A stretch of DNA of 46,071 nucleotides, from assembly GCA_022510605.1 (NCBI GenBank), contig JAFLTB010000011.1, positions 1 to 46,071 of the forward strand, in the 5' to 3' direction. This DNA is from Lachnospiraceae bacterium (lineage in GTDB: Bacteria; Bacillota; Clostridia; Lachnospirales; Lachnospiraceae). Of this stretch, positions 2,629-46,071 are shown in pieces (within the stretch, counting starts at the first letter, position 1; every line of letters begins with the position of its first letter). The position numbers and the translations under genes are program-made. Under the pieces are notes generated by a model. That model was not told the DNA's origin and did no database searches. It was given only the letters and a program-made list of their open reading frames with translations.

Positions 2629-3018
2629 TCAGTCCATATCTCCCGCGTCTTCCACATCCTCCAGATCGTCCTGATGCATCATGACTTCTCTGTTGGTGAC
2701 ACGTTTTTTGTCCCTTTGAACCTCTATCATCTCTGACAGCTTTTCTTTTACTTCGCCGGGAGTTTTGATACTCTTGATCTCAAAATCTCCCAGAGTCTTG
2801 TCCGCAGAAGCACAGTTTATCGTTCCCACGCCGAAAATCCGCTGTCCCAGTGTTTTGGTGAGACTTACATCCATAATGCGGTACAGTCTGACTTCATCTT
2901 CCTTCTGGGTAAGAAAGCCGGTTTTGATAAACAGCCGTTCTTCCGTTAATTCGTACTTTGTAAAGGACAATGGCAGTCCAAACAATGTCCGCTTCCTGTC
3001 TTTCCATATAATTTCCAT
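2629..3018 (-). CDS. PH domain-containing protein (bacterial PH / DUF304-like)
   Basis: A 129-residue protein with one bacterial pleckstrin-homology-like domain: IIWKDRKRTLFGLPLSFTKYELTEERLF, then VRLYRIMDVSLTKTLGQRIFGVGTI, then the strand/helix with GDFEIKSIKTPGEVKEKLSEMI. These domains often occur at membranes, but no membrane segment is present here. The C-terminal 25 residues are acidic (DDLEDVEDAGD). The start is the ATG at 3018, five bases after GGAGG; that Shine-Dalgarno site is the last part of the structured repeat upstream. The partner and exact function are unknown. Confidence 0.85.
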   Translation of the reverse strand: MEIIWKDRKRTLFGLPLSFTKYELTEERLFIKTGFLTQKEDEVRLYRIMDVSLTKTLGQRIFGVGTINCASADKTLGDFEIKSIKTPGEVKEKLSEMIEVQRDKKRVTNREVMMHQDDLEDVEDAGDMD

Positions 3019-3023
3019 TTTTC

Positions 3024-3184
3024 CCTCCATTCCGGAGCGTCAGCGTAGGAGGCACGCCAAGAAAGATGCGAAGCATTTTTCCCGAAAGATGCTTTGCATT
3101 TTCTTGGCTGTGCATCATACTATTTGTGACGCTCCGGCACAAATAGTGGGTTGAAAAATATGCTATCGAGCAAATTTTTCAACC
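3024..3184 (-). repeat. Structured dispersed repeat, copy A (leader of the PH-domain gene)
   Basis: Read on the minus strand, this holds in order: an inverted repeat GGTTGAAAAA/TTTTTCAACC (3149-3158 with 3175-3184); hairpin 1 ACTATTTGTG/CACAAATAGT (3119-3147) with loop CCGGAGCGT; a second stem GCCAAGAAA/TTTCTTGGC (3056-3064 with 3100-3108) enclosing two smaller hairpins; the sequence ACGCTCCGG (3032-3040), exactly complementary to the loop of hairpin 1; and AATGGAGG, the ribosome site of the next gene. About 105 bases match copy B at 45970-46071, apart from an extra internal hairpin here. It has no transposase. It could be a mobile MITE-like element or a cis-acting RNA; the covarying stem favours a selected structure. 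Confidence 0.85.
3120..3182 (-). CDS. Possible 20-residue leader peptide inside repeat copy A
   Basis: A TTG at 3182 lies seven bases after a strong GGGGAGG site and opens a 20-codon frame that begins MKNLLDSIFFN and ends LFVPERHK. Its last codons and TAG stop fall inside hairpin 1 of the repeat. The visible part of copy B keeps the same end (LFVPERHK, stop). A translating ribosome would melt hairpin 1. Expression is not proven and the frame is short, so this is a candidate only. Confidence 0.4.
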   Translation of the reverse strand: MKNLLDSIFFNPLFVPERHK

Positions 3185-3223
3185 TTTATCCTCCCCGTAT
3201 CCTGATTGTCATATTTATACGTT

Positions 3224-7747: not shown

Positions 7748-7792
7748 ACATACTCTCCATTCCGAAACGCCAGAAGACGCTTCTTCCATTTT

Positions 7793-12890: not shown

Positions 12891-12984
12891 ATTACCCTCC
12901 ATTCCGAAGCGTCAACAGGGGAGATGCGCCCCTTTTGGCTCCAACACGTTTTGCCCGACGGCGGTTACCCTCGGGCTGTTTATC

Positions 12985-36346: not shown

Positions 36347-36365
36347 TTACCTCCATTCCGAAGTG

Positions 36366-45289: not shown

Positions 45290-45964
45290 GTGTCCACTAT
45301 GCACATTATTTCTGGATGCCTCCGCTTCAGTTTCCTTTGCCGCGTCAATCAATGTCTGGATTTCGTCATCATTAAAAACCAGTGTGCCATCTTTTGCATC
45401 CTCCATCTTTTTTTCTAATTTCTCTGCCAGTTCCTCTGTCTTTCTGCGGGAATTTTCCCTGGTTTTTTCAATCTGCTTCTCAGCATTTTCCTGCGCTTTT
45501 TTGCGAAGCTTTTCGTTTAATTTATCTTTACGAACCGTCCGGGCTGTATGCCATATTTTCCCATCTTTATCGATAAACCAGTGGCTGTACTCCGTGGTAA
45601 ATCCCCGGGAAGTCGTAATGCTTTCTCCCAATTTTTCTGCTCGCTCGATATCTTTCATACGCTGGGTATAATATTTTTCTTTTTCCGGATTATTCTGCAT
45701 CTGGGCCAGTATGTCCGGATGGACAGTAAGGGTGCCGACTCTCCGGTCTTTTGATGTAGGTATGCTGTACCCCGTCCCTAATTTCATAGAAGGAACCTTC
45801 TTTTGTAATTTACCAAGATAATCGCTGTTGTCAGTTGCGGCATCCACGTTTTTCTGCGCTGCCGCTGTTTCTTTTGTTTCCTCCTTCTTAGCCGTCTGCT
45901 GTTTTTGTGTTCCATATGCACTCTCGTACACATTGTTATAATTGTTTGTAATCTCCATTGCCAT
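45269..45964 (-). CDS. DUF6033 family protein
   Basis: A 231-residue hydrophilic protein with no signal peptide or membrane segment. The N-terminal part is Gln/Lys/Thr-rich and probably disordered. The conserved middle (LGTGYSIPTSKDRRVGTLTVHP... EKEKYYTQRMKDIERAEKL... EYSHWFIDKDGKIWHTAR) is what I recognise as DUF6033. A long Lys/Glu coiled coil follows (about 150-205). The function is unknown. The ATG at 45964 follows GGAGG by five bases; that site is the end of repeat copy B. A longer frame upstream to 46066 is only the repeat being translated. It is upstream of cwlD and probably translationally coupled to it. Confidence 0.75.
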   Translation of the reverse strand: MAMEITNNYNNVYESAYGTQKQQTAKKEETKETAAAQKNVDAATDNSDYLGKLQKKVPSMKLGTGYSIPTSKDRRVGTLTVHPDILAQMQNNPEKEKYYTQRMKDIERAEKLGESITTSRGFTTEYSHWFIDKDGKIWHTARTVRKDKLNEKLRKKAQENAEKQIEKTRENSRRKTEELAEKLEKKMEDAKDGTLVFNDDEIQTLIDAAKETEAEASRNNVHSGHLPHHIL

Positions 45965-45969
45965 AATAA

Positions 45970-46071
45970 CCTCCATTCCGGAGCGTAAGCGGAGGAAGCA
46001 CGCCGAGAAAGATGCCTCGCATTTTCTCGGCTGTGCATCAATACTATTTGTGACGCTCCGGCACAAATAGT
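45970..46071 (-). repeat. Structured dispersed repeat, copy B (cut by the window end)
   Basis: Read on the minus strand: hairpin 1 ACTATTTGTG/CACAAATAGT (46043-46071) with loop CCGGAGCGT; stem GCCGAGAAA/TTTCTCGGC (46023-46031 with 46002-46010); ACGCTCCGG (45978-45986), complementary to the loop; then AATGGAGG, the ribosome site of DUF6033. Compared with copy A, stem position 4 changes from A-T to G-C on both arms, so pairing is preserved. The region upstream of hairpin 1, where copy A has its leader ORF start, lies outside the window. Confidence 0.85.

Follow-up and report, generated by a model that had tools for sequence, protein, structure and literature searches.

Small structured repeats of Lachnospiraceae-type bacteria located between the Shine-Dalgarno sequence and the start codon of host genes

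The structured element at positions 3024 to 3184 of the window, the whole stretch of 46,071 nucleotides that was analysed, belongs to a large repeat family that has so far not been described. The members of this family are about 120 to 190 nt long, multi-copy and without a protein gene, and are probably mobile, structured elements of Lachnospiraceae-type bacteria whose sense-oriented insertion separates the start codon of a host gene from its Shine-Dalgarno sequence (SD). After insertion, at the sites compared, the host SD is located 5' of the element, a few nucleotides before an NTG codon at the 5' end of the element, and the 3' end provides a second SD at a distance of about 6 nt from the host start codon. 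Conserved in the sense strand is a fold consisting of P1, P2 and P3, with the loop of P2 paired to the strand just 5' of the second SD. We infer from this arrangement that the RNA of the element controls translation of the downstream gene.

The window copy and its family

All parts of the window element are on the minus strand, as established by direct reading of the letters, the list of inverted repeats and translation of the leader. The preliminary description of a TTG leader open reading frame (ORF) behind a strong GGGGAGG is confirmed: GGGGAGG at 3190-3196, probably the displaced host SD as judged from other insertion sites, is separated by 7 nt from the leader LKNLLDSIFFNPLFVPERHK (3120-3182), which starts with TTG at 3182-3180 and after 20 codons stops with TAG at 3122-3120. 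Hairpin P1 (3149-3184; GGTTGAAAAAT ... ATTTTTCAACC) has 16-nt arms with 94% complementarity; hairpin P2 (3119-3147) exposes the loop CCGGAGCGT at 3129-3137. Both are found in the inverted-repeat list and covary, as does stem P3 (3052-3113), which varies in length from copy to copy. The leader stop had been assigned to the first hairpin, but TAG is located in the 3' arm of the loop-bearing hairpin P2. The tail strand ACGCTCCGG (3032-3040), which holds a CTCC complementary to the SD, is the pseudoknot partner of the P2 loop and its exact complement, as had been noticed, within an inverted repeat of 11 nt (100%); its distance from the second SD, GGAGG at 3024-3028, is three bases (AAT) and not the four previously given. 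This second SD, read directly, forms the 3' end of the element, and the tail CGGAATGGAG occurs five times in the window compared to 0.11 expected occurrences. The downstream gene (2629-3018, minus strand), with ATG at 3018-3016 as the most likely start codon, codes for a bacterial PH domain protein (PF03703, E 4.4e-16). A second copy on the minus strand (45957-46071), truncated by the contig end, precedes an ORF of 231 amino acids (ATG at 45964).

The window copy folds with a z-score of -7.1 on the minus (sense) strand and, more strongly, of -9.8 on the plus strand, as expected of palindrome-rich DNA, so that fold energy alone is no proof of an RNA. No Rfam family matched within the window at its gathering score; the best sub-threshold score was obtained for TD-2 (28.8 with 48.7 needed), and the six sub-threshold matches, to TD-2 and microRNA families, were taken as chance. 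Equally, a full-text literature search, with subscription papers largely outside its reach, retrieved no description of such an element.

DNA search detected 39 matches in the own genome, many of them at contig ends as expected of repeats, which break assemblies, and matches in 29 of 61 genomes when 60 relatives were included. With a covariance model of the family built from 20 aligned copies, eight genomes were found to contain 24 (own genome), 45, 34 (G025), 54 (G022), 6, 7, 18 and 14 copies. Throughout the order, the element occurs in at least eight of 196 genomes from two families and four genera, counts that are lower bounds with 15 candidates scored per genome and stricter filters applied. 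An exact 23-nt motif of the element is present in at least 120 stretches of the GTDB collection; the 80 titles listed comprise Lachnospiraceae, Acetatifactor, Roseburia, Eisenbergiella and Lachnospira, besides some labels that are uncertain or of other Clostridia type, and named carriers among the matches listed bear mostly labels of Lachnospiraceae or its genera, which suggests that the genome of the window is itself Lachnospiraceae-type. The same exact motif had no match in IMG/VR as a sign of carriage by phages.

Many copies are near-identical within one genome, which indicates recent amplification. Tandem insertions also exist, with three elements in L129 (G022:C91:208-637) and two in L100 (G014:C8:4367-4652); each junction of these arrays shares an SD. 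G014, G022, G025, G043 and G016 together account for 165 counted copies, of which 86 were fetched for the subsequent analyses of position.

Location between Shine-Dalgarno sequence and start codon

The tail was recognized in 82 of the 86 fetched copies, and in 66 of these a start codon that opens an ORF of 40 or more amino acids comes next, the spacing being 6 nt in 42 copies and 7 nt in 16 (together 58 of 66). The exact-motif set comprised 122 matches at 120 loci, one match duplicating another; with five too near to contig ends, 117 were scored. Among the matches listed, 95 of the 117 passed a strict test that demands the tail, then a start codon, then an ORF, with a spacing between tail and start codon of exactly 6 nt in 79 of the 95, while the orientation control, an opposite-strand start codon with an SD just past the 5' end, was positive in only 4 of 114 of the matches listed. 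When restricted to 80 of these 120 loci, the strict test was passed by 59 of 78. The expectation that copies lie upstream of start codons in one orientation is borne out by the 95 copies, while 22 fail the strict test. Nineteen of these failures belong to the first 80 motif loci and three to the rest. Inspection by eye places a start codon behind a variant tail in L193, L204, L220, L225, L235 and L249 and an ORF of 50 to 52 codons behind L180, L206 and L250, and ten loci do not fit (L172, L173, L176, L187, the masked L188, L232, L244, L245, L246 and L248); among the last three, L272 has an ORF of 53 codons and L276 and L289 have start codons behind variant tails. L005, a copy of the own genome, precedes a start codon that opens no long ORF.

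Upstream of the element, the flanks of those 73 of the 86 fetched copies that passed head and tail filters, a set also used for the leader-end and upstream-SD counts, were analysed. Within the 18 nt preceding the element, 66 of 73 copies have an SD-like 4-mer compared to 17 of 73 at 40 nt further up and to a mean of 30.0 and a maximum of 42 in shuffles; equally, 66 of 73 copies have TA immediately before the element. In 42 of the 73, the element shares its strand with the closest ORF upstream, and for 34 of those this ORF is at most 60 nt away in an operon-like arrangement. In L115, L117, L123 and L128, a short ORF follows the element before the start of the next gene, and translational coupling is possible.

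Element-free alleles in close relatives, available for eight sites (L295, L301, L168, L169, L170, L424, L426 and L430), carry the same SD and start codon, and the element sits between the two. Two of these sites were compared directly with close relatives and six were found by joined-flank queries, whereby joined flanks were made for 19 copies and seven were searched, with three of the rest common to G016 and G024. The element-free allele of L295 in G024, for example, reads TTTTGGAGGAATA/ATGTGAATAAG, whereas the occupied site reads TTTTGGAGGAATA, element, GGAATGGAGGAATAATGTGAATAAG; the site is not simply empty in all relatives, with a degenerate copy in G020 and a fragment in G016. In L168, L424, L426 and L430, the element is flanked on both sides by the host SD together with all or part of the spacer; L169, L170 and L301 deviate slightly in their spacers. 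L296 compared with G005 agrees with insertion into the SD gap as well. So do five genes of greater distance, namely argH, fabG, thioredoxin, a response regulator and an unnamed one (named by sequence reading rather than annotation), the five informative cases out of 16 queried and eight with matches; in argH, thus named, the unusual SD GGCGG is found 5' of the element. The SD before the leader, which had been counted as part of the repeat, is indeed present, but wherever an element-free allele is comparable it is the displaced SD of the host gene; for the window copy, this assignment is made by analogy.

Whether the 3' SD is brought by the element can be read in two ways. With regard to a target-site duplication, SD and spacer are seen on both sides of the element, but with varying length and with a tail SD that depends on the subfamily. 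Repeats shared by the two flanks reach 10 nt or more in 10 of 73 copies versus 1.96 by permutation (maximum 6 in 500) and 8 nt or more in 17 versus 11.8 ± 2.4, where an excess is not clear, and the spacer alone matches over 3.49 nt versus 3.00 ± 0.10. The 3' SD differs by subfamily, being AATGGAG, AATGGGG or AATGAGG, which argues for an origin in the element; on the other hand, the tail of L168 retains a host letter, which argues for origin by duplication of host sequence. The 94% identical orthologues L104 (G014) and L134 (G025) carry elements of different type at the same place, with re-insertion or conversion as candidate explanations.

Bare 3' tails such as TTGACGCTTCGGAATGGAGG also stand as ribosome sites with no element upstream, as for three further genes of the window (7755-7764, 12897-12906 and 36351-36360, minus strand). 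The own genome contains the pattern CGGAATGGAG-N4-8-ATG 47 times and the reversed pattern not once, and at 20 of 30 such sites viewed the element is absent. These bare tails look like relics of the element; an independent ribosome-site motif is a further reading, as relatives in which DNA search gave no match to the element have bare tails too (21 in G034). G046, a member of another family of the order, contains a different short repeat in six copies (L408-L412 and L414), which precede unrelated ORFs, have the same CGGAATGGAGATTAATATG as their end and share ACTATTTGTGCCG; L416 in G034 is similar. This repeat is possibly a sister family of the element.

Conserved fold and leader reading frame

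Covariation, previously noticed for one stem between copies, was tested with the covariance model on a larger alignment and bears out P1 to P3 as well as the loop-tail pairing. Among 96 aligned copies, 95.3% of the cells of P1 to P3 are paired and 36 of 41 pairs show changes on both sides, with the caveat that the alignment itself had been fitted to these helices. The score of the pseudoknot is less biased since its pairing is absent from the alignment model: its 9 bp are paired in 96.1% of cells, seven of nine pairs have changed on both sides, and 75 double-change cells compare with 19.2 ± 3.5 in shuffles, while sliding by one to three columns leaves a pairing of only 18.9 to 41.3%. Loop and tail types that have changed together include CCGGAGCGT/ACGCTCCGG, CCGAAGCAC/GTGCTTCGG, CCGAGAACG/CGTTCTCGG and CCGCAGGCG/CGCCTGCGG. 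Complementarity of 28 distinct loops averages 7.9 nt with the own tail versus 5.9 nt with other tails, calculated from the 153 of 177 rows that passed and with approximately three apparently mis-assigned loops kept in the averages. Two further alignments, one of 91 loci omitting among others L112, L114, L115, L121, L122, L125-L128, L162 and L163 and one of 72 of the first 80 motif loci, each include a few weak opposite-strand matches. The P2 loops of L153, L155, L167 and L168 contain an extra hairpin of the AGAAC...GTTCT type and retain the pairing half GGAGCG.

The leader is likely to be translated. GTG, TTG or ATG occupies the fixed leader-start place in 107 of 124 non-redundant copies, and a stop codon within the first 12 codons occurs in 6 of 124 in the leader frame versus 118 and 98 in the other frames; these counts derive from 148 of 177 rows, and the copies are related and hence not independent. 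The proposal of a structured cis element with a leader start codon behind an SD is supported. A fixed leader stop, as deduced from the window copy, is rejected, as only some subfamilies terminate the leader in P2, and in others it reads to or into the gene.

Element type, candidate switch and known systems

Mobile element and cis-acting RNA had been put forward as alternatives; both readings hold and are compatible with each other. The element behaves like a mobile small interspersed repeat and like a translational leader, while neither definition covers it fully. The element would keep the host gene translatable, which would explain the survival of copies at gene starts. There is a real chance that the family constitutes a new class. 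In its most far-reaching form, to which we subscribe only tentatively but as a serious possibility, this would be a class of mobile elements that exploits translation initiation: it would recognize SD-start gaps, enter in sense orientation, supply a start codon for the old SD and a new SD for the old start codon, and have an SD-mimic loop compete for the same strand, so that a genome would gain dozens of translation switches whose 3' remnants persist as ordinary ribosome sites.

A plain MITE-like DNA repeat, with folds serving single-stranded-DNA transposition and with SD and leader as by-products of a preference for GGAGG as target, appears rather doubtful in comparison. Recent amplification and tandem insertions, the patchy host range (at least 8 of 196 genomes across the order), flanking host sequence at either end of the element and the strong folding of both strands are what such a repeat would show, and the copies are short, numerous and without a protein gene. 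Terminal inverted repeats joining the two ends are, however, lacking, the inverted repeats of the window copy being internal (the 5' end within P1, the tail with the P2 loop); furthermore, the loop-tail pairing abuts the SD, and sense orientation and start-codon position are combined in 95 of 117 of the matches listed. An IS200/IS605-type mobiliser was considered and rejected: PF01797 (Y1_Tnp) is present in five of seven genomes and absent from the copy-rich G022 (54 copies) and G025 (34 copies), which also speaks against a plain MITE-like repeat; Y1_Tnp was the transposase family covered by this search, and it yielded no mobilising enzyme. Among the loci examined, none was an autonomous copy that holds a gene in the interval from P1 to P2. 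The expected P2 pattern was missing in 7 of 121 copies, as determined by a scan with direction fixed, P1 being palindromic; by eye, L083, L148, L305 and L375 have a variant P2, L024 and L314 pass from P1 into the tail within 17 nt, and L180 is a chance match.

With regard to the mode of control, the tail strand holds CTCC in the commonest type and also CTTC or CTCA, with correspondingly GGAG, GAAG or TGAG in the P2 loop, and can pair either with this loop or with the SD (CTCCG-GAA-TGGAG). The longest helix of SD and tail has a mean of 4.29 bp versus 2.75 bp for shuffled strands. Since the tail strand pairs either the loop, with the SD free, or the SD, which is then blocked, loop pairing may free the SD and not block it. 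We infer, although weakly, a freeing of the SD by loop pairing, which leader ribosomes would reverse. In the corresponding switch, which is proposed with considerable reservation, the host SD would drive synthesis of the leader peptide, the tail strand would choose between the P2 loop, an SD mimic with GGAG, and the SD itself, pairing of P2 loop and tail would free the second SD, and ribosomes on the leader would open P2 and shift the tail strand onto the SD. The SD-tail hairpin, although paired in 92.4% of cells, was not accepted as a proven switch, as its covariation is at shuffle level (the score was reached by 247 and the double-change cells by 323 of 500 shuffles); only three of its pairs are doubly changed, a number reached in 16 of 500 shuffles.

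The opposite sign, with the P2 loop blocking the SD through pairing with ACGCTCCGG and translation of the leader opening it, is the one originally suggested and seems unlikely, even though the paired strand is 3 nt from the SD, probably inside the 30S footprint, and the leader is open through P2 in most copies. The complementarity of the same strand to the SD (4.29 versus 2.75 bp) implies that the SD would become free once the loop has captured this strand. Nested folding of 72 copies without pseudoknots also gives a slightly lower probability of an unpaired SD with P1-P2 occluded (0.23) than for the full element (0.31), with exposure lower in 28 and higher in 6 of the 72 copies, a small change. 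As originally worded, the blocking sign is unsupported, with CTCC of the tail able to pair the SD itself, and neither sign is proven.

A classical, vertically inherited cis-regulatory RNA of a regulon, be it a riboswitch or a leader attenuator, would equally show a covarying, pseudoknotted fold ahead of the SD, as found here, sense orientation and a leader ORF, and six orthologous gene pairs carry copies in two species, but alleles without the element largely refute it, and together with presence and absence between close relatives, near-identical copies inside one genome, downstream genes from unrelated pathways and shared positions limited to six among 113 genes compared make it very improbable. 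No coherent gene set was recognized among ten own-genome genes (with L028 behind a partial copy) or among the 113 genes, which are 120 downstream stretches minus seven without an ORF of 50 amino acids, with two further loci without tail.

Small repeats of bacteria are usually regarded as intergenic clutter. Most copies of the present element are placed so as to rewire the translation start of one gene, with a fold supported by compensatory changes, and the family amounts to a natural replicated experiment in ribosome-site swapping. Unrelated genes might by this route acquire the same translational control, and the question of how the element finds SD-start gaps becomes directly testable. Like the present element, Correia elements, ERIC and REP are short repeats with a structure of their own that become part of mRNAs; the present element differs in its targeting of the SD gap, and to our knowledge no such target rule has been reported for them. 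The preQ1 and SAM-II riboswitches control translation by a pseudoknot that adjoins or includes the SD. A pseudoknot next to the SD is common to these riboswitches and the present element, whose copies, however, are mobile and serve unrelated genes with no ligand implied. The group I intron of Clostridioides difficile with its c-di-GMP aptamer is a structured insert that alters how the SD meets the start codon; the present element is far smaller, and the window gave no match to an intron or ribozyme family. Rickettsia palindromic elements and mitochondrial byp elements are mobile hairpins inside coding sequences that are tolerated because translation continues, whereas the present element resides in the SD-start gap. 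Nearest among the published systems retrieved, BOX, RUP and SPRITE of Streptococcus pneumoniae are small interspersed repeats that are transcribed and can affect neighbour genes, with BOX being modular and BOX-encoded ORFs lacking good SD candidates (PMC3049150). The present element is likewise a small interspersed repeat, and differs from BOX, RUP and SPRITE, as far as they are described there, by insertion into the SD-start gap, fixed orientation, a terminal SD and a pseudoknot between the loop and the strand next to the SD (PMC3049150).
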